Part shown: positions 815-47,807 of the stretch, one piece after another
How the letters are laid out: each line of letters starts with the position of its first letter
Numbering within the stretch: position 1 is the stretch's first letter
NCBI GenBank assembly: GCA_001800605.1
Contig: MGVS01000039.1
Coordinates: forward strand, 1 to 56,232
Length of the DNA: 56,232 nt
From: Elusimicrobia bacterium RIFOXYD2_FULL_34_15
GTDB lineage: Bacteria > Elusimicrobiota > UBA8919
Direction: 5' to 3'
Position numbers and translations under genes: made by a program
Notes under the pieces: generated by a model
Databases searched by the model: none
Told to the model about the DNA's origin: nothing
What the model saw: the letters and a program-made list of their open reading frames with translations, nothing else

Positions 815-3121
815 TTATTCACCAGCTACCTTCACCGGTAACTTTACAACAAATGTTGTACCTTTACCTACCTCGCTTTCCACTTCTATTGTCCCATTAT
901 GTTTCTTTATTATTTCATAACATATACTCAGTCCTAAACCAGTTCCTTTTCCTACCTCTTTTGTAGTATAAAACGGCTCAAAGACATGTTTCTTTACTTC
1001 TTCTGACATTCCCACACCTGTATCTGATATTGAAATTATAATATATTTTTTATCTGCGTTTATCCCTGCCTGCCGGCAGGCAGGTGCGTTTAAATCAGCG
1101 TCAATCTGCGATGTCGTTATCGTTATCGTTCCGCCTTCTGGCATCGCATCCATTGCATTATTACATAGATTCACTATCACTTGCTCTATCTGATTCTTAT
1201 TTATCTCTATCTGAGGTAAATCCGGAACATACCGTTTAATAATTTCAATATTTTTAATTTTTGCATGAGCTTCTACTAACGATATTGTATCATCAATCAA
1301 CACATTGATATCTGCTTTATCCTTTACCTTATCATCTATTCTGGAAAACGTTAATAAATTACTCACTAATTTTTTACATCTTATTGCTTCCCGCTCTATT
1401 GACTTCAATGGTATATATAACGAATCCCCTTCTTTCACCATTTTAACTACACTTTGGGCAAATCCTAATATTACCCCCATCGGATTGTTTATTTCATGTG
1501 CCACCCCACCTGCTAACTGTCCTACCGCTGCCATCTTCTCGGATTGTAGTAATTGTGCTTGAAGTTTTTCTTTCTCTTTCTCCATATTTTTCCGCTCGGT
1601 TATGTCACTAAATATTGCAGCAAATTTATTATCAGAATATTTATAAGCAAAAACTTCAAACCATTTATCTAAACTTTTAACGCGATTTTCTATATGCACC
1701 GGATTTCCCGTTTGAACAACTTCCGCATACTTATCAATCCAAAACTGTTCTATGCTCGGAATAATTTCACGAATAGTATGATTCATCGCCATATCACAGC
1801 GTATTCCTGTATTATTTTCCCAAGATTGGTTAACACTTAAATAACGGAAATCTATTGGCTTGTTTTGTTCATCCCAAATCATCTCGCAAAGTGCAAATCC
1901 TTCATTCATTTTATCGAATAACATACGATAATGCTTCTCACTCTGTTTCAATGCATATTCAGCATACTTCTGCTCGGTTACGTTTTTTATAATAGATCTC
2001 GTTCTGACAAAGTTTCCTACACTATCATATATTGCTGAAGAGTTTATTATTACATCCAATTTTTCTCCATTTTTTTTGATCATTTTCCCATTTTCAACAA
2101 ATAGTATTCCTTCATGTCTTAATTTTTCAAAACCTTTTTTGACGTTGTCCCATGTTTCAGGAGCATATATTTCTTTTATATATTTTCCATCGAGTTCTTC
2201 CCTTGAATAACCAAGAATTTCACATTCCTTTCGATTTGCAAAAACAATATGACCATCAATATTAACAGAATGAATCATATCCGAAGCATTTTCAACTATA
2301 TCTTGATACCGCTTTTCAACATCTATTAATCTTTTTTCTAATACTTTTGTTGATTCTATAAATTTTTCTCTCATTTCCCAATTGAAAATTTTAAGCATTC
2401 TAATTATGACCCAACTAACAATTACAGCACAAATAGCACGAAAAAACTGAACAGGGATATGTATAACCTCAAAAAATAAATCCATATTAAACCAGTCGGC
2501 AGGAAAAAAATTTGCTTTTGGAACTACCAATCCCCCTAAAAATCCATAAACTAAAAACGATAAACTCGCTAAAATAAAATATCTCTTTACTTTTAATGAT
2601 TTCAACATTATCTCGTTACATTTATAATACGAAGAAAAACCAAATGTTATAAGTATGCACCCGGTAAAACCTAAAAAATATCTTACCAATATATTCCCAA
2701 TTTTTAAAAAATCTGCAGACATAAATGCAAAGATAAAAATAAAAATTAAAATTATAAGTAATAACCACCTCGTTAAGACACTAGCTATTCTTTTGTGAAA
2801 TGAATTTCTATCTTTCCCTAAACTAAAAAGTTGTCTTCCAAACTCAAACAACAAACAATAAGAAATAACCAATATAAACCATCGAAATATATCAAAAAAG
2901 GTATTACTTTTTTTAATTATTGACCACATATCTAAAAATTCACTCAATCCGTGGGTTATACCAAATATAGCCAATAACCAAAGTATATCCGCAATCCTAA
3001 ATTCACTTTCTTTTTTAGGTTGAATTAAAATAGCAATTCCCATTACTACAAATGCAAAACCATAGACAAAAAATACAATATCCAGATTGTTTTGAAACCA
3101 CTGTTGAATTATATCCATCAT
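815..3121 (-). CDS. Membrane PAS-PAS hybrid-sensor histidine kinase
   Basis: A 768-residue sensor kinase that would autophosphorylate and pass phosphate to a response regulator, probably the one encoded just upstream. Residues 1-245 hold six to seven membrane segments. A short coiled coil leads to two PAS domains (about 270-385 and 395-510). The HisKA domain has the H-box GGVAHEINNPMG with phospho-accepting His542. The ATPase domain shows an N-box (NLCNNAMDAMPEGG), DTGVGM and GKGTGLGLSI. The start has an AGAGGTG site 8 bases upstream. Between the N-box and the DTGVGM box there are about 19 extra residues (about 673-691, including NAPACRQAG) that are the in-frame translation of a dispersed palindromic repeat. 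No receiver domain is present in this protein. Confidence 0.93.
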   Translation of the reverse strand: MMDIIQQWFQNNLDIVFFVYGFAFVVMGIAILIQPKKESEFRIADILWLLAIFGITHGLSEFLDMWSIIKKSNTFFDIFRWFILVISYCLLFEFGRQLFSLGKDRNSFHKRIASVLTRWLLLIILIFIFIFAFMSADFLKIGNILVRYFLGFTGCILITFGFSSYYKCNEIMLKSLKVKRYFILASLSFLVYGFLGGLVVPKANFFPADWFNMDLFFEVIHIPVQFFRAICAVIVSWVIIRMLKIFNWEMREKFIESTKVLEKRLIDVEKRYQDIVENASDMIHSVNIDGHIVFANRKECEILGYSREELDGKYIKEIYAPETWDNVKKGFEKLRHEGILFVENGKMIKKNGEKLDVIINSSAIYDSVGNFVRTRSIIKNVTEQKYAEYALKQSEKHYRMLFDKMNEGFALCEMIWDEQNKPIDFRYLSVNQSWENNTGIRCDMAMNHTIREIIPSIEQFWIDKYAEVVQTGNPVHIENRVKSLDKWFEVFAYKYSDNKFAAIFSDITERKNMEKEKEKLQAQLLQSEKMAAVGQLAGGVAHEINNPMGVILGFAQSVVKMVKEGDSLYIPLKSIEREAIRCKKLVSNLLTFSRIDDKVKDKADINVLIDDTISLVEAHAKIKNIEIIKRYVPDLPQIEINKNQIEQVIVNLCNNAMDAMPEGGTITITTSQIDADLNAPACRQAGINADKKYIIISISDTGVGMSEEVKKHVFEPFYTTKEVGKGTGLGLSICYEIIKKHNGTIEVESEVGKGTTFVVKLPVKVAGE
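1051..1110. repeat. Dispersed repeat inserted in frame in the kinase gene
   Basis: The perfect 20-base palindrome CCTGCCTGCCGGCAGGCAGG lies at 1065-1084, flanked by ATCTGCG/AATCAGCG-type repeat sequence. The same palindrome occurs between genes at 19514-19533 and, with one change, at 47768-47787. Here the whole block is a multiple of three and stays open in the gene frame. Confidence 0.85.
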
Positions 3122-19502: not shown

Positions 19503-19656
19503 CTGATTACACACCTGCCTGCCGGCAGGCAGGGATTTAGAAAACCGATTACACAGACTTTTAAAAGCAATTTAAGATTTAACGAAGAGCCTTAATCTGT
19601 GTAATCTTGCCTTTTATCTGTGTAATCAGTGATTGTTTGGATTTTTAAACAATCAC
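19503..19656. repeat. Composite repeat plus hairpin after the zinc-ribbon protein gene
   Basis: GATTACAC units, the palindrome CCTGCCTGCCGGCAGGCAGG (19514-19533), and ATCTGTGTAATC units are followed by the 10-bp hairpin GTGATTGTTT/AAACAATCAC (19629-19656). The hairpin ends 3 bases from the stop codon of the upstream gene. The same hairpin and spacing occur at 47758-47804. Confidence 0.8.
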
Positions 19657-34601: not shown

Positions 34602-35318
34602 CTATGCTATCTTGCCTATATTTAGTCTCTTTAAATATTTTCCGACTTTCAACAGGTCCGCTTTTGTATCAACACCTATTGTATTGTATTTTGTTTTAAC
34701 AACAAAAATTTTATAACCGTTTTCTAAAATTCTTAACTGTTCAAGTTTTTCTGCAATTTCAAGCGGTGTTTGTTTCATCCCGGAATATTTCAGTAAAAAA
34801 TTATTGCGATAGACGTATAAACCGATATGTTTAAGTGAATTTTGTAAAGGTAATCGCGAAAAATAAATAGCAAAATTATTTTTATCAATTATAACTTTTA
34901 CGTCATTTGGATTTGTTCTTTCCTGTTCCGAGGTAAAATCAGTTGCAAGTGTTGATACTAAAATATCTTTGTTATCAATTAACGGTTTAACCGCTAAATC
35001 AATCATTGCGTGCTTTATTAGCGGTTCATCGCCTTGAATATTAACGACGATATCACAATTCATTTTTTTTGCGACAAATGCCAGCCTGTCGGTACCGCTA
35101 TTGCATTGCGGCGTCATTATTACATCTGCGCCAAAAGATTTCGCAGAATTAAAAATTCTTTTGTCATCGGTTGCAATTATAACTTTATCTAATAATTTGG
35201 ATTTTGAAACTGATTCATAAACCCATTGTATCATGGGTTTGTCTAAAATTTTAATAAGTGGTTTTCCTGGTAATCTGGTAGAGGCGTATCTGGAGGGGAT
35301 AATACCAATTATTTTCAT
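34602..35318 (-). CDS. kdsB: CMP-Kdo synthetase (3-deoxy-manno-octulosonate cytidylyltransferase)
   Basis: 238 residues, standard length. Motifs: IGIIPSRYASTRLPGKPL, IATDDKRI, NIQGDEPLI and the family ending TKYNTIGVDTKADLLKVGKYL. It activates Kdo with CTP before transfer to lipid A. Its ATG overlaps the stop of the heptose kinase gene. KdsA and KdsC are encoded 13 kb downstream on the same strand. Confidence 0.96.
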   Translation of the reverse strand: MKIIGIIPSRYASTRLPGKPLIKILDKPMIQWVYESVSKSKLLDKVIIATDDKRIFNSAKSFGADVIMTPQCNSGTDRLAFVAKKMNCDIVVNIQGDEPLIKHAMIDLAVKPLIDNKDILVSTLATDFTSEQERTNPNDVKVIIDKNNFAIYFSRLPLQNSLKHIGLYVYRNNFLLKYSGMKQTPLEIAEKLEQLRILENGYKIFVVKTKYNTIGVDTKADLLKVGKYLKRLNIGKIA

Positions 35319-36280
35319 TTTAATGCTTTTGATAACTCCTGAGGGGAAACCGTTGCGGTACCAACTTTTCCAACGACAATTCCGGCTGCAAAATTTGCAA
35401 TTTTTGCCGAATCTGAAAGAGACATCCCACTTGCCAAAGCCAAAGTTAATACGGCAATTACAGTGTCTCCTGCTCCCGTTACATCAAAAACTTCTTTCGC
35501 CGCTGTGGGTATATGCAAACTTTTTGTTTGTTCAAAAAGAGTCATGCCGTTTTCACCCTGAGTTATCAATACTGACCTGCATTTTAGTTTTTTTAATATT
35601 TTTTTCCCAAGTTCGTCTATTTCACTTATATTTTTTAACCTTGTAATATGCATTCCGCCCATAGCTTCGTAGATGTTCGGCGTCAAGCAGTCGACATATT
35701 TATATCTTGTAAAATGTTCTATTTTAGGGTCAACGGTAACTATTTTTCTATGTTTTTTGGCTAATTTTATAATCTTTTGTATTATACTTTTGGTGATTAC
35801 TCCTTTACCATAATCCGATATCAATACCGCATCTGAATCAGATATTCTTTCAGTGAAGAATTCTAAAATCTTTTTTGTGTTGACCGGGGAAAGTTCACGT
35901 ACGGTCTCTTTATCAAACCTGACAACTTGTTGATGACCGGCAATTATCCTTGTTTTGATGGAAGTTTCTACGGTTTTATCTTTAAATATACCGCTTACAT
36001 CAATATTTTTCGCATGAAGTTCTTTTAATAATACTTCCGCAGTATAATCATTCCCGACAATACCTGAAATAGAAACATTTCCGCCAAGAGAAACTATGTT
36101 ATTTGCAACATTTCCGGCTCCGCCTAAACAGTATGTTTCCATCTTAACTTCAACAACCGGAACGGGTGCTTCCGGTGAAACTCTTCGTGCCTCACCACGG
36201 ATAAACCTGTCAAGTATCAAATCCCCAAGAATAAGCACTTTCGCTTTCGAAAATTTATCGAATATATGACTAAAATTCAT
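35315..36280 (-). CDS. rfaE1: D-glycero-beta-D-manno-heptose-7-phosphate kinase (RfaE domain I)
   Basis: 321 residues, PfkB-type kinase lacking the nucleotidyltransferase half of bifunctional HldE. It begins VLILGDLILDRFIRGEARRVSPEAPVPVVEV, characteristic of this subfamily, with GGAGNVANNIVSLGG and the catalytic GAGDTVIAVLTLAL. It makes heptose-1,7-bisphosphate, the substrate of the GmhB-like domain encoded four genes upstream. The adenylyltransferase and epimerase steps are not found in the window. Confidence 0.93.
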   Translation of the reverse strand: MNFSHIFDKFSKAKVLILGDLILDRFIRGEARRVSPEAPVPVVEVKMETYCLGGAGNVANNIVSLGGNVSISGIVGNDYTAEVLLKELHAKNIDVSGIFKDKTVETSIKTRIIAGHQQVVRFDKETVRELSPVNTKKILEFFTERISDSDAVLISDYGKGVITKSIIQKIIKLAKKHRKIVTVDPKIEHFTRYKYVDCLTPNIYEAMGGMHITRLKNISEIDELGKKILKKLKCRSVLITQGENGMTLFEQTKSLHIPTAAKEVFDVTGAGDTVIAVLTLALASGMSLSDSAKIANFAAGIVVGKVGTATVSPQELSKALK

Positions 36281-36301: not shown

Positions 36302-37210
36302 TTACAGAAAAGTCAATAAAGAATGATATAGCAAAGGAAGCATTATTTCGTGGTGCCCGATGAAGTAAAAACCACTGCCGCCGGTAGGCCTTGAAACTAT
36401 ATTTTCTGCTGCTCTATACTGATAATTCATATCGAAATTACAAGCAGTAAAATTATTAACTTTATGCCCAAGATTTCTTGCTAAATTCAATGATTTTAGG
36501 AAAACTTCCGGCAAAATTACAGCAGACCCAAAGTTTAAAACCACACCGCCTTCCAATTTTGTAATTATATCCGTAAGTTTTATGAAATCATTATATGATG
36601 TTTTACCCCAGCTTGCCCCGTCACATTCGGGATGCTGATAAATTATATCGGTACCTATACCGGCATGTACCGTTGCCGGAATTTTTAAATTATATGCATT
36701 TGCAAAAATGCTATCTCTATGAAATTTTAATTTTTTATTGTTAATCATATTGCCGATTGTTTCGCCAAGCCCGAGATTTCTTTTTGCACCTTCTTTTACC
36801 GCTCCATTTATATATTTTCCTGTTTCAAGTGACATACCGAATTCACCTTTTTTTAATTGTATTGCGACATCTTCGGACGTTTTTCCGGTATAAGCAAGTT
36901 CAAAATCATGGATGATTGAAGCTCCGTTTGTCGAAACCGCGGTAATTACGTTTTTTTTCATTAAATCAATGACTATACGGGAAAGCCCGCATTTAATGAC
37001 ATGCGCTCCAAACATAAAAATAACAGGTTTTTTATTTTTTTTAGCAGAAATAATCCTTTTGACGACTTCTTTAAAATTCTTGCCGGCTAAAACATCCGGC
37101 ATGCACTTAATTAAATTTTTTTTATCCGGAGTTACCAGCATGTTTATGCTAACCTTGCTTTCTCTTTTCTCCAACGGATATCTTTTAACTTTTTTTATAT
37201 TTATCACCAT
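36302..37210 (-). CDS. Conserved protein of unknown function in the LPS operon
   Basis: About 302 residues. I do not recognise the family with confidence. Visible blocks that look conserved: VIFMFGAHVIKCGLSRIVID, STNGASIIHDFELAYTGKTS, GEFGMSLETG, ATVHAGIGTDIIYQHPECDG, NFGSAVILPEVFLKSLNLAR and SGFYFIGHHEIMLPLL. The alternation of strands and glycine turns suggests a Rossmann-like fold; some wording recalls deoxyhypusine-synthase-type enzymes, but this is weak. No signal peptide. The ATG at 37210 has a GAAGGGGG site and follows the DUF3108 stop by 7 bases. It precedes the heptose kinase. Confidence 0.7.
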   Translation of the reverse strand: MVINIKKVKRYPLEKRESKVSINMLVTPDKKNLIKCMPDVLAGKNFKEVVKRIISAKKNKKPVIFMFGAHVIKCGLSRIVIDLMKKNVITAVSTNGASIIHDFELAYTGKTSEDVAIQLKKGEFGMSLETGKYINGAVKEGAKRNLGLGETIGNMINNKKLKFHRDSIFANAYNLKIPATVHAGIGTDIIYQHPECDGASWGKTSYNDFIKLTDIITKLEGGVVLNFGSAVILPEVFLKSLNLARNLGHKVNNFTACNFDMNYQYRAAENIVSRPTGGSGFYFIGHHEIMLPLLYHSLLTFL

Positions 37211-37217
37211 GCCCCCT

Positions 37218-37955
37218 TCATTTTTCAGGAATGTTCGCCATATTTTCATTCCATTCAGCAATGATATTACCAACGCTGACTCCGGATTTCATCTTTACGG
37301 GAATATGTTTTTCATCGTCAGTTAGCCATATTTTTATAGTTCCCTTTTGCATAAAAATACCCTGATCCTGAAGAATCGGTTCAACAACAATGGTCTTATA
37401 TTCTTTATTATTAACATTTATTGTCTCTCTACCGTAAATGTTAATATACATTATATAATTTTTTTTGTGAGAATTAACATTTACTTTTAACGCTTTACCA
37501 GGTTCAAGTTTCTGAAGCCTAACCCAGTAAAAAGCAGAAAGTACATCTAAAGCATTATCAAAAATATTAAATGTTTCTCCTTTATTATTTGTTCCGATAT
37601 GTTTTTTCTGATCGTATTTTGTCATTCTTTCCCGTTTGTATCTGCCTTCTTTTATTTTTTGCAGAAATGCTAACGAATGAAAACTATTAACATCAATCCA
37701 AGCTTCATTCATATCTCTTACTTTATAAAACACATCAAAAAACGGCACTGATTTTGCTTCAGAATATATATGATATGCTTTTTTACCTTCATAATCCTCT
37801 ATACCTTTTACTTCAAGAAGACCATATCCGACTTTAACAAATTGCCAGCTTACTTCAAAAACCAATTTTTCACCTACAATCAGCGTCTTATTCTCTGAAA
37901 AACAATTATTAATAGGTAAAAAACACAGCATTAAAACAAGTATTTTAATTTTCAT
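37218..37955 (-). CDS. DUF3108 periplasmic/outer-membrane-associated protein
   Basis: 245 residues with a signal peptide (MKIKILVLMLCFLPINNCFS). The rest matches the DUF3108 layout: GEKLVFEVSWQFVKVGYGLLEV near the N terminus, VRDMNEAWIDVNSFHSLAFLQKIKEGRYKRERM in the middle and KGTIKIWLTDDEKHIPVKMKSGVSVGNIIAEW at the end. The function of the family is not settled. Overlaps the preceding ligase/phosphatase gene by 11 bases. Confidence 0.88.
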   Translation of the reverse strand: MKIKILVLMLCFLPINNCFSENKTLIVGEKLVFEVSWQFVKVGYGLLEVKGIEDYEGKKAYHIYSEAKSVPFFDVFYKVRDMNEAWIDVNSFHSLAFLQKIKEGRYKRERMTKYDQKKHIGTNNKGETFNIFDNALDVLSAFYWVRLQKLEPGKALKVNVNSHKKNYIMYINIYGRETINVNNKEYKTIVVEPILQDQGIFMQKGTIKIWLTDDEKHIPVKMKSGVSVGNIIAEWNENMANIPEK

Positions 37956-39651
37956 TTTTTATTATCCATTCTGCGGCAGCTAAAATATCTTTCGCTGTAT
38001 AATCCGCACCTTTGACATCTTTACCCTGACCGCTTAAAACAAAAATTGATTTTGCATTTATGCTTTTTGCCAAATCAATATCACATTGTTTATCGCCGAC
38101 AATGTATGAATTTTTTAAATCTATATTTAAATCTTTTTTTGCCCTAATAAGCATTCCGGGTTTTGGTTTCCTGCAAGAACAGTTATCGTCCGGATGATGC
38201 GGACAAACATATATATTATCAATATGGGCATAGTTTTCATTAAGCCTCTTTTTTAATTCCTTGTTTACTTCGTCTGCATCTTTCCTGGAGTAATACCCCC
38301 TTCCAATCCCGGACTGATTAGTAACAATTATAACTTTATATCCTGATTTGTTCAATAGTCCTATCGCTTGTGCAGATTTTTCGAAAACCTTAAGATCTTT
38401 AACTTTTGATAGATAATGTGAGTCTTCAATTATCGTACCGTCTCTATCAAAAAAAACTACCCTGCTTTTATAAAACGTCAATGCCATTAAAAATAATGCA
38501 GTCATTCTAACTTCCGAATCACCATAAGTATATTCTGTTAAACCTGATAATAAAAACCCTGGAATTCCCAATAGACATCCTGAAATAAAAAACCTCTCTA
38601 AACCACTGACGTACTTTGCTTTTCTTATTCCGTAATAAAAATAAAATACAAATAAATTCAAAAAAGCCAATAAACCAAATATTCCTCTTTCAGTCAGCAA
38701 ATGTATAAATGTGCTATGCAAATGTGAAAGTTTATAATGTTCTTTTGGTAAATTTAATTTTTCATAATAACCGGGATATACCGTTTTTATATTTTTCATT
38801 CCGGTTCCAAATAACGGATAATCCTTAAAAATTGCAAAAGAAGTTTTCCACATGTTGATGCGGATAGGATCTCTGAAATCAGTTGCCCTTTTAATAATAT
38901 TTGCCCTTTTTGGAAGGAAAAAACTTGAGGATATTATTAAGATTAAAATAATACCAAACCAAATAAAATTAATATTTTTAAGTATTTTAAATTGAGTAAA
39001 AAACATAATTCCAAAAATAACAAATGTCGTTAACCAGACCATCCTGACATAACTTAAAACTATTCCTGAAATAATAAGTCCGATAATCAAATAATAAAAT
39101 ATTTTTTTTCTTGAATTTAGTGAAAAATAAATGGCTATCGGCAAAGCCATAAGAAGCCCTTCTGCATATGTGTGCATCCATGAACGCGTTCCATGAGCGC
39201 GAAAATTAAACATGCTCAAAAGGCTTGCGGTTTTACCGTATGCAACATTATCCCAGATATTATTGCCGCTAAAGTACTGCCACAAACCTAATATGCCGGT
39301 CAAAGCAGAAGAAATTAAAAAGAAATAAACTATTTTTTTTACGTGTTCAAAATCTTTTACATTTACAGCAATAATAAAAAAAACTATAAAAAGCAATTCA
39401 GAATTTAAACCTTTTATACTATTTGAAAAATTTAAACCAAAAAATGAAGAAATTATTGTTACAAGCAGAAATATAAAAATTGGATAAATTAACGGAATAG
39501 AAAAATCTTCTGATTTTTTTAAAATTATTTTAATAATCCATACGAGCAATAGAATTGCCCAAACAACATTTGTTGCGGCAATAGAAATTGGAATTACAAA
39601 CGCCAGCACCATTAATCCATAATATAAAATTGAATCAAGCTTTTTAACCAA
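37945..39651 (-). CDS. O-antigen ligase (Wzy_C-type) fused to heptose-bisphosphate phosphatase GmhB
   Basis: 568 residues from a TTG start chosen for the perfect GGAGG six bases upstream (39658-39662). Residues 1-390 have about eleven membrane segments and a periplasmic loop with LFGTGMKNIKTVYPGYY and HLHSTFIHLLTERG, as in O-antigen ligases and polymerases. The last ~175 residues are a HAD phosphatase: VVFFDRDGTIIED (Asp402, Asp404), VIIVTNQSGIGRGYY, the zinc motif CPHHPDDNCSCRKPKPGM and SYIVGDKQCDIDLA, diagnostic for GmhB. No stop or start separates the parts. The two activities act in one pathway, LPS assembly and heptose supply. The gene overlaps lpxK by 8 bases. Confidence 0.9.
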   Translation of the reverse strand: MVKKLDSILYYGLMVLAFVIPISIAATNVVWAILLLVWIIKIILKKSEDFSIPLIYPIFIFLLVTIISSFFGLNFSNSIKGLNSELLFIVFFIIAVNVKDFEHVKKIVYFFLISSALTGILGLWQYFSGNNIWDNVAYGKTASLLSMFNFRAHGTRSWMHTYAEGLLMALPIAIYFSLNSRKKIFYYLIIGLIISGIVLSYVRMVWLTTFVIFGIMFFTQFKILKNINFIWFGIILILIISSSFFLPKRANIIKRATDFRDPIRINMWKTSFAIFKDYPLFGTGMKNIKTVYPGYYEKLNLPKEHYKLSHLHSTFIHLLTERGIFGLLAFLNLFVFYFYYGIRKAKYVSGLERFFISGCLLGIPGFLLSGLTEYTYGDSEVRMTALFLMALTFYKSRVVFFDRDGTIIEDSHYLSKVKDLKVFEKSAQAIGLLNKSGYKVIIVTNQSGIGRGYYSRKDADEVNKELKKRLNENYAHIDNIYVCPHHPDDNCSCRKPKPGMLIRAKKDLNIDLKNSYIVGDKQCDIDLAKSINAKSIFVLSGQGKDVKGADYTAKDILAAAEWIIKNEN

Positions 39652-40657
39652 TCTGGCCCTCCAGAAATTTAGCAAATTCCTGTTTTTCTTTGATTTCAAG
39701 TTTTACATCAAGAACATAGCATGGAAAATCTTCCGGCAAACGGGTAGCATCTTTTGATGTGGTAATAATAGCTGCCTGAAATTCTGCGGCATCGCCGTAA
39801 AATTTTCCTATATCCCTGTCTTTAAAAAAGTAATGATCGGGATATTTTTTATGACCAAGAAGATTCAGTCCTAATTCTTTGATTGTCTTTTCAAAATCTT
39901 CAGGAACAGCAATCCCCGAAATGGCAATGACATTCTTTTCTTGTAAAGTTGATATTTCAACTTTATTGCCATTTCTATCAAAAATATTTTTACTGAAATA
40001 TGCATGGAAAACGGGAATATCTTTTTTATATTTTCTTATTGTGGCTTCTATTTCCTGAATTTTTTCGTCCGGTACCTGATTGCTTCTTGTAATTACAATA
40101 ACATCTGCTCTTGACAAGCCTTTTACGGGTTCTCTCAAATACCCTGCAGGTAAAAGCAAAAAATCACCGAAAGGATTCAAGGCATTAATACATACAATAT
40201 CTAAATTCCTATAAAGGCCCAAGTACTGAAGCCCATCATCCAGAATTATCGTATCGGTTCCGAATTTTTCAATTGCAAAATGCCCCGCTTTGTATCTGTC
40301 TCTGCCAATGACAACAGGAACATTTTTTAATGACCTTGCTGATAGATATGCTTCGTCACCTGAAATCGTTGGACCAAGAAAAACCCTTTTTCCGTCACTC
40401 ACTGTTACAGGATTATTATTTTTTATTTTAGATTTGTATCCCCTGGAAACTACACAAACTTTTTTTCTTGTTTTTGACAATAAATCTGCCAAAAATATTA
40501 CTAAGGGAGTTTTTCCGGTTCCCCCGACTGAAATATTGCCTACTGAAATCACTTTACAATTTAATTTTTTCTGTTTTGCCTTTCTTATCATCTGTGAAAT
40601 GTTAAAAAAGAAAAGATAAACAAAAGAAAGTGGTTTAAGAAATTTTAATGGTTTCAT
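39644..40657 (-). CDS. lpxK: Tetraacyldisaccharide 4'-kinase (lipid A 4'-kinase)
   Basis: 337 residues, normal for LpxK, a membrane-associated P-loop kinase of the Raetz pathway. It has an N-terminal hydrophobic helix (LSFVYLFFFNI) and the P-loop NISVGGTGKTPL at residues 41-52, plus VVSRGYKS, GDEAYLSARSL and DTIILDDGLQYLGLYRNLDIVCI. Its start overlaps the stop of the deacetylase gene (ATGA). Confidence 0.95.
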   Translation of the reverse strand: MKPLKFLKPLSFVYLFFFNISQMIRKAKQKKLNCKVISVGNISVGGTGKTPLVIFLADLLSKTRKKVCVVSRGYKSKIKNNNPVTVSDGKRVFLGPTISGDEAYLSARSLKNVPVVIGRDRYKAGHFAIEKFGTDTIILDDGLQYLGLYRNLDIVCINALNPFGDFLLLPAGYLREPVKGLSRADVIVITRSNQVPDEKIQEIEATIRKYKKDIPVFHAYFSKNIFDRNGNKVEISTLQEKNVIAISGIAVPEDFEKTIKELGLNLLGHKKYPDHYFFKDRDIGKFYGDAAEFQAAIITTSKDATRLPEDFPCYVLDVKLEIKEKQEFAKFLEGQIG

Positions 40658-41349
40658 ATTTTTTTATACACCTTTTCATAAATTTTTGAAAAAAACTGAT
40701 TTGAATAGATCACTAAACGGTTTCTTAGCCATTTTTCAGGACCCCGCGCATCGATTCGTTTCAGTAGATATGGATTTTGATTAATATCATTAGACCCTAT
40801 ATCCAGAGTAAGCCCGCCTAAAAAACCCGCAGATTTTAAAACATCGACATATAATTCATCATATTCTCCGTACGGATAGCAAAAATATTTCGACTCCTTT
40901 TTCAAGTTTCCTTTTATAATATTTTTTGAAAGCATAATATCATCTATAAGCTCTTGTTTTGACGGTTTCATTAAAAAATATCTCGGATGACTGTGCGTAT
41001 GCGACTCAAAATCAATAATTCCGGAATCCTGCATTTCAAGGATTTCTTCCCAGTTAAGATGCCCCAAAAGACCTACTTGGGATGTTATTAAAAATACCGT
41101 TGCTTTGAAACCATATTTTTTAAGTATTGGAAATGCTTCTGAATAATTATCCTTATATCCGTCATCAAAAGTTAAATGAACAGTTTTGTCAGGTAAAGTT
41201 TTCTTTCCATTAATATAATTATAAACCTCATCGAGTGTTGCGGAATAATATTTTTTTTCAATAAGTAATTTAATATTTTTCTCAAATATTTCCGGCGTAA
41301 TCATTCCGTTTTTGTTAATATTATGATAACAGATTATTAATACTGACAT
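40654..41349 (-). CDS. NodB-type polysaccharide deacetylase
   Basis: 231 residues, a CE4 carbohydrate esterase domain without a signal peptide. The metal and base residues are seen in HLTFDDGYKDNYSEAF (Asp62, Asp63) and FESHTHSHPRYF (His117, His121), with the TVFLITS strand. Homologues in LPS operons deacetylate sugars or undecaprenyl-linked glycans. The substrate cannot be read from the sequence. Overlaps the neighbouring GT9 gene. Confidence 0.92.
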   Translation of the reverse strand: MSVLIICYHNINKNGMITPEIFEKNIKLLIEKKYYSATLDEVYNYINGKKTLPDKTVHLTFDDGYKDNYSEAFPILKKYGFKATVFLITSQVGLLGHLNWEEILEMQDSGIIDFESHTHSHPRYFLMKPSKQELIDDIMLSKNIIKGNLKKESKYFCYPYGEYDELYVDVLKSAGFLGGLTLDIGSNDINQNPYLLKRIDARGPEKWLRNRLVIYSNQFFSKIYEKVYKKI

Positions 41350-42263
41350 TCGATAATTTTCCCAAAAACTTCTTCAGTTGAAAGTTTATTAAGATCTCCT
41401 TGTATATATCTGTGAATATCCGAATCCGGCGGTGTCCAATTTACAGGATTTGTTTTCAATCCATAAATGATAAACGTTGGAGTGTTCTGGCTTGTCGCTA
41501 TATGACCCGGCGCTGACGAAGTACCTACATGCAGTTTAACATTTTTCATCAATGCGGCTAAATCTAAAAGATCAGTATTAAACGATAAAATATGTTTTTT
41601 CTTACACAAACCCATGGTTTCTCTTACGTAATCCTCCTCATTGGGTGCATAAGTAAAAACTATTTTAGCATTTAATTTTTCAGATATCAAATCAGCAAGC
41701 TTTGCAAATTTTTCTTTTTCCCAGCTTTTATACGCTCTTTTGCTTGTCACATCAAGAGTAATCAGAAAATCATTTTTACTAATACCATTTTCATTGAGAA
41801 AACTTATCACCTTTTCTTCATTTTCTTTATTAAATTTTAAGTCTAAATTAATGCCATCATCTTTTAAGTTCAATATTTCAAGAATTTTAAGACGGTCATA
41901 AACTGTATAGACCCGAGTTGAATATCTTGGCATAATATTATAGCACCAAAAACCCCAAGGCCTGTAAAATGCAATTCTTTTCTTAGCTTTTGATTTGAAA
42001 GTATAATATCCTGTAATGGCTGAATTCATGAAATCTATTACCACGTCAAACTTGTGTTCTTTTATCTTCTTTAATGAACCTTTGTCAAATAAAATTATTT
42101 CAGATAAATACGGATTATTTTTTAAAATTTTTTCAGATATCTTCTCGGTCAAAAAAAATATTTCACTTTCCGGCTTATTTTTTTTTATGGCCCTGATTAA
42201 CGGTGTTGTAAGTAAAACATCACCTATTGCTCTTAATACAATTATTAATATTTTTTCATTCAT
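41337..42263 (-). CDS. Glycosyltransferase family 9 (LPS heptosyltransferase-like)
   Basis: 308 residues, GT-B fold of the heptosyltransferase family: N-terminal ILIIVLRAIGDVLLTTPLIRAIKKNKP, middle FLITLDVTSKRAYKSWEKEKFAKLADLI, and C-terminal VGTSSAPGHIATSQNTPTFIIYG. It would add heptose or a similar sugar to the LPS core. It is the more divergent of two GT9 genes in this operon. Confidence 0.9.
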   Translation of the reverse strand: MNEKILIIVLRAIGDVLLTTPLIRAIKKNKPESEIFFLTEKISEKILKNNPYLSEIILFDKGSLKKIKEHKFDVVIDFMNSAITGYYTFKSKAKKRIAFYRPWGFWCYNIMPRYSTRVYTVYDRLKILEILNLKDDGINLDLKFNKENEEKVISFLNENGISKNDFLITLDVTSKRAYKSWEKEKFAKLADLISEKLNAKIVFTYAPNEEDYVRETMGLCKKKHILSFNTDLLDLAALMKNVKLHVGTSSAPGHIATSQNTPTFIIYGLKTNPVNWTPPDSDIHRYIQGDLNKLSTEEVFGKIIECQY

Positions 42264-44123: not shown

Positions 44124-45153
44124 TATACGCCTTTTCTGTTTCTGAAATGAACTTGTCTATATTATATTTTTCTTTTATTATTTTTCTATTGTTTTCTCCG
44201 GTAATTTTTATATTTCCCGGTTTTTCTAAAAAATATAAAATATTTTTTGTTAAAATTTCAGAATCGCACGGCTCGGATAAAAATTCTTTACCTAAGATCT
44301 CAGGAATACATCCTACCGAAGTTGCGACTACCGGCTTGCCACAGCTCATCCATTCTAAAAGAACCCGGCTAACCGCTTCACTGCCGGTTGATGCGATAAC
44401 CCCAATGGTACATCCTGACATGAACTTGTAAACATTATCTACATATCCTACAAACTGGATATTTTTTTCAATCCCCAGTTTACCTGCAAAAACCTTTAGT
44501 TCCTCATATTTTATATTTTCTTCTTTACCTGCAATTAAAAATTTTGCATTAGAAAATCTCTTCAATACAAAAGCAGCAGCTTCTAAAAAATATTTATGAC
44601 CTTTTACCGGATCCAAACGGCCGACCATACCGATTATCGGACCTTCCGGAGCCGGATATTCCGATAAAACCGGAATTTCAATACCCTGATATATTATAGC
44701 AATCTTTTCCGGATTTGTTTTTATTTCAATATATCTTTTTTTTATAAGTTCTGATGCTGCTATTATTTTGTCAGTTTTAGCCGATAGAAAACTTCTTTTC
44801 GGATACATATCATCTGCTTTAGTCCTTACTATTGCAAATTTATTTTTAGAAAATATTGAAGCCAAATATGCTAAAAAATGTCCTTTTCCGGTGTGCGCAT
44901 TAACAATGTCAATTTTTTTATTTTGAATCAAATCTTTTAATTTCAGAACGCTTTTTAAAATAAACGGATTTTTTCTTGAACATATCACCAGAGTTTCAAA
45001 ACCATTTTCTCCTGCAACTTTTAACGGCAGACCATTCTTTACACCGGCAAAAAAAATCTTGTGCCCTTTTTTGGAAAGTCCTTTTGAGGATTCAATCGCA
45101 TAGCTGGTCACTCCGCTATACCAAGGTATATCAATTATATTCAAAATATTCAT
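44095..45153 (-). CDS. Glycosyltransferase family 4
   Basis: 352 residues. N-terminal ILNIIDIPWYSGVTSYAIESSKGLSKKGHKIFFAG, interdomain IIGMVGRLDPVKGHKYFLEAA and the donor motif STGSEAVSRVLLEWMSCGKPVVATSVGCIPEIL. A GT-B sugar transferase of the LPS/surface glycan set; donor and acceptor unknown. It overlaps both neighbouring genes, as expected of a translationally coupled operon. Confidence 0.91.
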   Translation of the reverse strand: MNILNIIDIPWYSGVTSYAIESSKGLSKKGHKIFFAGVKNGLPLKVAGENGFETLVICSRKNPFILKSVLKLKDLIQNKKIDIVNAHTGKGHFLAYLASIFSKNKFAIVRTKADDMYPKRSFLSAKTDKIIAASELIKKRYIEIKTNPEKIAIIYQGIEIPVLSEYPAPEGPIIGMVGRLDPVKGHKYFLEAAAFVLKRFSNAKFLIAGKEENIKYEELKVFAGKLGIEKNIQFVGYVDNVYKFMSGCTIGVIASTGSEAVSRVLLEWMSCGKPVVATSVGCIPEILGKEFLSEPCDSEILTKNILYFLEKPGNIKITGENNRKIIKEKYNIDKFISETEKAYNETIKNIAH

Positions 45154-46189
45154 AAAGCTTTTTTACAGCTCCAAATACTTCATCAACAGTAACTTTGTTC
45201 ATACAATTAAAATGATTTCTTGGACATTTATTTGACCCATGCCTGTCGCATGGCCGGCACTTGATATCCTTTTCTATTACAACCGCTTTATCCGAATACG
45301 GGAAAAATCCGAATCTTTTTACTGTAGGACCAAAAATTGCAACAGTCGGTATATCCAATGCAGCGGCAATATGCATCGACCCGGAATCATTTGTAATAAA
45401 AACTCTGCATCTTTTTATCAACGCTGTTAGCTGTTTAAGCGTTGTCTTGCCGGCAAGATTAATCGGGTGTTTCTTCATATTTTTTTCAACTATTGATGCT
45501 GTATCAATATCATCGACACCGCCAAAAATTATTATTTTTCCGCCAAATTTATCTACAATTTTATCCGATAATTCTGCATATCTTTCCGGAAGCCATCTTT
45601 TGGTCGCCCAAACACTTCCCGGATTTATCCCAAAATATCTGCCCTGAGCGACCTGTCCTGAGCTTGTCGAAGGATCTAAAGTTGAGTCTGCATACTCATC
45701 GGATTTTTTATCAATATATATTTTTGTCTTTTCTTTTTCTAATTCAAAACCGAAATATTGCATTAAATCCAAATATCTTTCAAGTTGACATTTATCTTTA
45801 TCAAAAGGTATGCACTTAGTTAAAAAAAACCTACCCGCACTATTACAAAACCCTACTCTCTTTTTTATTCCGGATAAATAGGCTAAAAAGCCAGATTGGA
45901 AAGAAGGGTGTGGAATTAAAACCGTATCATATTTTTTTTCCCTTATTTTTTTTGCTAATTTAAATAAATTAAAAATCCCCCTGTCTTTACCTTTTTTATC
46001 ATAAACAATAATTTCATCAATATCCGGGTGCCCTACAAGAATATCTTTTGTCGAAGGAATGCATAATACAGATACTTCAGACTTTAAATATTTTTTTGCT
46101 GCCTGAATTAAAGGAATCGTTAAGACAACATCTCCTAAAAAAGCCGTCTGAATAATCAGTATTTTCACCTTTGCCTTCCTGAAAAACAA
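45131..46189 (-). CDS. Glycosyltransferase family 9, heptosyltransferase II-like (with in-frame repeat)
   Basis: 352 residues. Typical WaaF-like blocks: ILIIQTAFLGDVVLTIPLIQAAKKYL, FGINPGSVWATKRWLPERYAELS, FITNDSGSMHIAAALDIPTVAIFGPT and the terminal Cys segment CRPCDRHGSNKCPRNHFNCM. Residues about 172-182 (DPSTSSGQVAQG) are the translation of a dispersed repeat inserted just before the PGSVW donor-binding strand. The gene is first in the LPS operon. Confidence 0.92.
   Translation of the reverse strand: MFFRKAKVKILIIQTAFLGDVVLTIPLIQAAKKYLKSEVSVLCIPSTKDILVGHPDIDEIIVYDKKGKDRGIFNLFKLAKKIREKKYDTVLIPHPSFQSGFLAYLSGIKKRVGFCNSAGRFFLTKCIPFDKDKCQLERYLDLMQYFGFELEKEKTKIYIDKKSDEYADSTLDPSTSSGQVAQGRYFGINPGSVWATKRWLPERYAELSDKIVDKFGGKIIIFGGVDDIDTASIVEKNMKKHPINLAGKTTLKQLTALIKRCRVFITNDSGSMHIAAALDIPTVAIFGPTVKRFGFFPYSDKAVVIEKDIKCRPCDRHGSNKCPRNHFNCMNKVTVDEVFGAVKKLYEYFEYN
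45643..45675. repeat. In-frame repeat in the heptosyltransferase gene
   Basis: Contains CCTGAGCTTGTCGAAGGATC (45656-45675 region) preceded by CTGAGCGACCTGT. On the coding strand it reads DPSTSSGQVAQG and does not break the frame. Confidence 0.85.
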
Positions 46190-47621: not shown

Positions 47622-47807
47622 TTTGATTACACGGATTTCTAACATCGATTACACCGATTAAAACCTAAACCTTCTAATAGAATCTGCCCGTCCTCCGCAG
47701 TAGCAGTGCTACTGCTACGGAGGATGGATGTAATATGCATTCTAATCTGCGTAATCAGTGATTGTTACCTGCCTGCCGGTAGGCAGGGTTTTTTTAACAA
47801 TCACAAT
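47622..47807. repeat. Composite repeat plus nested hairpin after secF
   Basis: GATTACAC units, a CCTCCG...CGGAGG inverted repeat around GCAGTAGCAGTGCTACTGC (47694-47724), ATCTGCGTAATC, then hairpin GTGATTGTTA/TAACAATCAC (47758-47804) whose loop contains the palindrome CCTGCCTGCCGGTAGGCAGG (47768-47787). The hairpin ends 3 bases from the secF stop codon, exactly as in the module at 19503-19656. Confidence 0.8.

Follow-up and report, generated by a model that had tools for sequence, protein, structure and literature searches.

An O-antigen-ligase-type membrane domain and a GmhB phosphatase domain in one conserved reading frame of an Elusimicrobiota order

How does a membrane ligase of the O-antigen type come to share a reading frame with GmhB, the phosphatase of heptose-precursor synthesis, and what could such a protein do? 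We examine this question at a locus of Elusimicrobia bacterium RIFOXYD2_FULL_34_15 (contig MGVS01000039.1; "the window" below is the whole stretch analysed, 56,232 nucleotides). Our preferred reading, to which as a whole we give a probability of roughly 0.7, is that the gene encodes a two-sided protein in which a WaaL-type ligase is joined to the only GmhB of the genome, that it arose by a single merger and has been kept by selection, and that it likely provides a fixed one-to-one supply at the membrane. The features that the argument needs are these:

37945..39651 (-), fused coding sequence, WaaL-type membrane domain plus GmhB, 568 aa, TTG start, TAA stop (translation, domain matches)
39658..39662 (-), ribosome-binding site GGAGG, 6 nt 5' of the TTG (sequence and duplex energies)
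38479..39651 (-), membrane domain, residues 1-391, 12 predicted TM helices, N-in/C-in (hydropathy and positive-inside counts)
38659..39084 (-), Wzy_C (PF04932) core, residues 190-331, including the large periplasmic loop with R264 and H312
38485..38505 (-), two in-frame ATG codons, residues 383 and 389, candidate weak internal starts before GmhB
38467..38478 (-), junction FYKS, residues 392-395, between the last TM helix (379-391) and the first GmhB strand (396-402)
37948..38466 (-), GmhB domain, residues 396-568 (NF006506/TIGR01656; E. coli GmhB 2gmw/3l8e)
38434..38448 (-), HAD motif DRDGT, residues 402-406 (D402, D404); D402, D404 and T406 invariant in 9/9 genomes
38173..38205 (-), zinc motif CPHHPDDNCSC (C-x-H ... 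C-x-C), residues 483-493; C483, H485, C491 and C493 invariant in 9/9 genomes
39644..40657 (-), lpxK, upstream, 8-nt overlap with the fusion start (PF02606, TIGR00682)
41337..42263 (-), GT9 family (heptosyltransferase-like) gene (PF01075)
37218..37955 (-), DUF3108 gene, downstream, 11-nt out-of-frame overlap with the fusion end (PF11306)
35315..36280 (-), hldE (HldE kinase), TIGR02198 above cut-off
34602..35318 (-), kdsB (Kdo cytidylyltransferase), TIGR00466 above cut-off

Translation of 37945-39651 (-) is uninterrupted over 568 residues from TTG to TAA, and the open frame, together with Wzy_C and GmhB model matches whose motifs are intact, bears out the proposal of the initial annotation that a ligase and a GmhB lie in one frame. 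The same is true of its call of a TTG start with a perfect ribosome site. The GGAGG, which sits within the 3' end of lpxK, gives a duplex energy of -9.8 kcal/mol, compared to a background with a mean of -1.85, 5% at -6.2 and 1% at -8.4 kcal/mol, and GGAG with a TTG start is kept in all nine genomes of the order (-6.4 to -11.5 kcal/mol). The further statement that no start intervenes is not quite accurate: there is an in-frame ATG at residue 383 (38503-38505, 19 codons 5' of DRDGT) and another at residue 389 (38485-38487, 13 codons 5' of DRDGT), though neither has a clear ribosome site, their energies (-5.8 and +0.4) being within background.

To see how widely the pairing occurs, we searched 60 relatives and then all 341 Elusimicrobiota genomes (the nine with the fusion and 332 others). 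The full-length, stop-free fusion is found in the other member of the genus (73% identity), in six further family members (56-63%) and in one genome (50%) that belongs to a different family of the order. With the window's own genome, this makes nine of nine genomes of one order of uncultivated Elusimicrobiota, and exactly these nine of the 341. The domain-pair search that had been suggested thus recovers the same pair at full length in eight relatives. None of the 332 other Elusimicrobiota genomes gave a full-length match, GmhB there being separate from the ligase or without a match, and we rejected the fusion as a phylum-wide trait on this ground; 64 genomes of other phyla (53, plus a few more from two of these phyla) gave no full-length match either. 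Named copies, all labelled Elusimicrobia bacterium, come from separate MAG projects (CG06 groundwater, UBA, NC_groundwater, Zod, ADurb); the scan for them was queried with N-terminal ligase peptides only and is blind to independent fusions with other ligases. The fusion itself is real and conserved.

The membrane domain matches PF04932 Wzy_C in Pfam over residues 190-331 with 69.5 bits (cut-off 31.7, E 3.5e-19). Hydropathy averaged over the nine fusion sequences has 12 transmembrane peaks; the loops assigned to the cytosol are short and positive, those assigned to the periplasm include one of 78 residues (246-323) and an acidic one that precedes the last helix. Taken together, 12 helices and this charge pattern place both ends of the domain, and hence GmhB, in the cytosol. 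R264 and H312 are invariant in all nine fusions and in the unfused ligase of one more distant genome, G204. We also modelled the protein with AlphaFold2, using seven natural fusion sequences; the model is of moderate confidence (pLDDT 60.9, pTM 0.64) and for this reason uninformative about the relative placing or packing of the two domains. In this model residues 2-396 align with WaaL 7tpg (7tpg_B; Z 22.8, 353 of 403 residues), and 7tpg is the sole PDB match of the membrane-domain profile. The likeness to WaaL (7tpg/7tpj) covers the fold over almost all of the membrane domain and the Wzy_C core, but WaaL is free-standing, without a phosphatase domain, and identity in the structural alignment is about 14%. 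By fold and genomic context (lpxK, heptose and Kdo genes), the domain is likely an O-antigen ligase.

The GmhB assignment draws on both models and structures. NF006506, TIGR01656 and TIGR00213 match residues 396-564 with E-values of 1.6e-50 to 1e-37; in bits, the TIGR01656 domain score of 141 is above its cut-off (84), while NF006506 (171.2, cut-off 178) and TIGR00213 (129.5, cut-off 149.6) fall just short of theirs. The zinc motif had been called complete, and its four ligand positions are indeed all present and unchanged across the order, as are the HAD residues D402, D404, T406, T/S444, K495, G519-D520 and D524 (9/9). In one fused GmhB (G003, L009) the motif reads DRDDT in place of DRDGT, at window residue 405, with both aspartates retained. 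The best structure matches of the C-terminal part are solved GmhBs, and modelled residues 395-568 match E. coli GmhB 2gmw with Z 20.0 over 171 residues; from the alignments to 7tpg and E. coli GmhB we take both domains to be complete. E. coli GmhB (2gmw, 3l8e) shares the HAD fold, the DxD, the zinc motif and about 30% identity; it differs in being soluble and encoded by its own gene, and the zinc loop of the fusion GmhB (CPHHPDDNCSC) is shorter. The GmhB part is predicted to hydrolyse heptose 1,7-bisphosphate. In each of the nine genomes it is the sole match over the TIGR01656 cut-off, a second, free GmhB having been sought and none found over cut-off, so the fusion must supply the heptose 1,7-bisphosphate phosphatase step if the pathway runs.

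Where do the two parts meet? The initial annotation put the junction near residue 390, and it lies near residue 392: in the AlphaFold2 model the last helix (379-391) and the first GmhB strand (396-402) leave a hinge of four residues. All nine fusion sequences are gap-free from residue 290 to 542, and amino-acid identity reaches 77% at 385-400 and 79% at 392-397, compared to 59% at 2-370 and 65% in GmhB. Codon differences among the nine genomes at residues 385-400 count 172 synonymous versus 134 nonsynonymous. The conserved, gap-free joint and this synonymous excess argue that the joint has been kept by selection as a one-frame protein sequence.

The neighbourhood listed above is one of lipid A, heptose and Kdo genes. 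The same genome also has an RfaE2 adenylyltransferase, adjoined by a GmhA-like isomerase that scores under its curated cut-off. The HldD epimerase is over cut-off in only one of the nine genomes (G008, among G000-G008), and ADP-D,D-heptose may be the end of the pathway in the window's family, the D,D form being the one activated. Between the DUF3108 gene and hldE lies a GSU2086-family gene (deoxyhypusine-synthase-like; 36302-37204 (-), NF052581 well over cut-off).

The arrangement in distant relatives suggests how the fusion arose. In G022 and G045 the ligase gene is followed by gmhB and then DUF3108 as separate genes with out-of-frame overlaps. The unfused ligase most similar to the fused one (31-34% identity) is that of G204, where gmhB starts from an ATG that falls within the end of the ligase gene but in another frame. 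These adjacent waaL-type and gmhB genes have the order of the fusion, ligase before gmhB, but they are two overlapping genes in different frames, and such out-of-frame overlapping neighbours point to the route by which the fusion arose. In a tree of 77 GmhB domains, the nine fused GmhBs form one clade (support 100/99). A single merger in the order's ancestor explains these data. Relatives with separate genes had been named as an outcome that would speak against the fusion; they exist, adjacent and unfused, in distant G022, G045 and G204, but within the order the genes are fused in all nine genomes.

Other long GmhB frames (up to 658 aa) were considered as further ligase fusions, and those examined are not ligases. 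They join GmhB to DUF3108, a heptosyltransferase, a nucleotidyltransferase or an RfaE2-like domain, and in high-GC genomes the upstream extensions of long GmhB frames resemble non-coding read-through. GmhB and the downstream DUF3108 share one frame at L024:616-1992 (-), L066:4374-5837 (-), L067:4362-5825 (+) and L068:4722-6098 (+), and further such frames are L054:3765-5696 (-), L055:702-2435 (-) and L056:3342-5042 (-). These frames run through a hydrophobic signal-like stretch and occur in two separate Elusimicrobiota groups, the low-GC f3 and the high-GC f22/f23; they may represent another GmhB fusion that recurs, here to a periplasmic domain. In another phylum, a 575-aa frame (G349, L099:1764-3488 (+)) joins a GT9 heptosyltransferase-like part to GmhB; a nucleotidyltransferase-GmhB frame lies at L100:1636-2970 and a GmhB-RfaE2-like frame at L102:2662-3741.

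Several other explanations of the locus have to be weighed. That an assembly or frame error joined two genes has in its favour a source that is a draft genome in 119 contigs, and the initial annotation named such an error at about 38470 as a refutation. The same stop-free frame in nine species-level genomes, 50-73% identical and assembled by several independent projects, excludes it, and we regard this explanation as practically negligible. A more substantial doubt concerns the membrane domain, which could be another Wzy_C member, a polymerase or a protein O-glycosylation ligase. Each of the nine genomes has 5 to 11 Wzy_C matches, a number of paralogs that leaves the ligase assignment unproven, and all equivalog ligase models are under cut-off for the domain (TIGR03097 with 52 versus 188 bits). 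On the other side, the fused paralog is the one inside the lpxK/heptose/Kdo cluster, and the match to WaaL extends across nearly the entire domain with no other PDB structure hit by the profile. We consider it unlikely, though by no means far-fetched, that the domain is such a member; what stands of the earlier name "O-antigen ligase" is the WaaL fold and the Wzy_C core, while the ligase role itself is assigned by context. As an observation on these paralogs, the 2.5-Mb genome of the window (G000) has nine Wzy_C matches, on contigs C39, C45, C52, C68, C69 and C95, and many of their frames are 580-750 aa long; they form a large group of ligase/polymerase paralogs.

The remaining two alternatives accept the fused frame and differ in what it means. 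In one, the merger is neutral: a stop was lost between overlapping operon genes, leaving two independent enzymes whose gain is limited to co-expression. This fits the unfused relatives in which both genes are adjacent and overlapping, and the fact that the product of GmhB is not used by the ligase. It also fits the ease with which GmhB merges: other families have it in frame with DUF3108, and genomes of other phyla with a heptosyltransferase, nucleotidyltransferase or RfaE2-like domain, and it is these joinings to other neighbours that make a neutral merger a serious rival, at somewhat less than even odds. What tells against it is that all nine genomes keep the fusion, none having split it again at identities as low as about 50%, and that the joint is strongly conserved without length change. 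In the other, the gene yields two products, the fusion and a free soluble GmhB made from an in-frame ATG some 10-13 codons before DRDGT. Such an ATG is present in all nine genomes, at -13 in eight and at -10 in G008, near the start expected of a free GmhB; yet its ribosome-site energies (+1.9 to -4.5) are near background, whereas those of the TTG are -6.4 to -11.5, and methionine is common in transmembrane helices. We consider dual products quite improbable.

Returning to the selected two-sided fusion, we can outline what the protein would do. It would be one inner-membrane protein with two sides. Its N-terminal part would be a WaaL-type ligase with the active loop turned to the periplasm, which would probably transfer a glycan from a lipid carrier to lipid A-core. 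The C-terminal GmhB would be attached where the last transmembrane helix ends in the cytosol and would turn heptose 1,7-bisphosphate into heptose 1-phosphate for ADP-heptose synthesis. The gene would stem from a single in-frame merger of adjacent, overlapping lipid A/core operon genes in the ancestor of the order and would have been under purifying selection since. Ligation takes place on the periplasmic side of the inner membrane, while the heptosyltransferases that consume heptose work at its cytosolic face, and the product of GmhB is not a substrate of the ligase. Because of this, no direct channelling or hand-over from the GmhB active site to that of the ligase is expected, and tethering can amount to no more than co-location with a fixed stoichiometry. 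The likely effects would be a fixed 1:1 supply and a heptose synthesis that is located at the membrane, next to the heptosyltransferases. The earlier suggestion, a tethering of heptose supply to the membrane at the site of core completion, is supported in part: the predicted topology does set GmhB at the cytosolic face of the membrane, but ligation happens on the other one. Membrane tethering of heptose synthesis is plausible; that the cell holds one intact polypeptide with both activities, and that tethering brings any benefit, we infer. A bolder version, in which the GmhB under the ligase anchors the HldE kinase, RfaE2 and the heptosyltransferases, such that core supply and ligation are coupled across the inner membrane in a second, independent class of two-sided ligase, seems to us decidedly unlikely.

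The closest precedent of the fusion is WadA of Brucella, a single polypeptide that combines an O-antigen ligase domain of 12 TM helices, acting in the periplasm, with a cytosolic enzyme of core synthesis, a glycosyltransferase at the N-terminus by which the acceptor sugar is made (PMC9938171). Both proteins thus combine a periplasmic ligase with a cytosolic core-synthesis enzyme, but in WadA that enzyme is at the N-terminus, whereas the Elusimicrobiota fusion has a heptose-precursor phosphatase at its C-terminus and gives no glycosyltransferase match to Pfam or curated family models, lacking the feature that defines WadA. The literature that we searched, a limited collection, holds no paper on a ligase-GmhB fusion or on heptose LPS in Elusimicrobia. 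The claim that a ligase fusion of this kind was not known therefore stands for the ligase-GmhB pair and fails for fusions of a ligase to a cytosolic enzyme in general, of which WadA is one (PMC9938171). Within that literature, the fusion is a previously unreported pairing of two well-known parts, of unproven benefit. It would be a second kind of O-antigen-ligase-type protein fused to a cytosolic core-synthesis enzyme, here in a little-studied phylum, and it suggests a possible physical link between the steps of lipid A-core synthesis on either side of the inner membrane. The fusion further offers a single-gene marker of one Elusimicrobiota order and a clear case of overlapping operon genes turning into one protein. 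If tethering matters, this natural fusion would be a tool for testing the membrane placement of soluble ADP-heptose enzymes.

Two short repeats were seen elsewhere in the window, with a chance expectation of none. The palindromic CCTGCCTGCCGGCAGGCAGG has three dispersed copies (window positions 1065-1084, 19514-19533 and 47768-47787), one of them in frame within a histidine-kinase-like ORF at 815-3121 (..PACRQAG..), and CTTCGACAAGCTCAGG at 45657-45672 is in frame within the ORF 45131-46189 (..DPSTSSGQ..).
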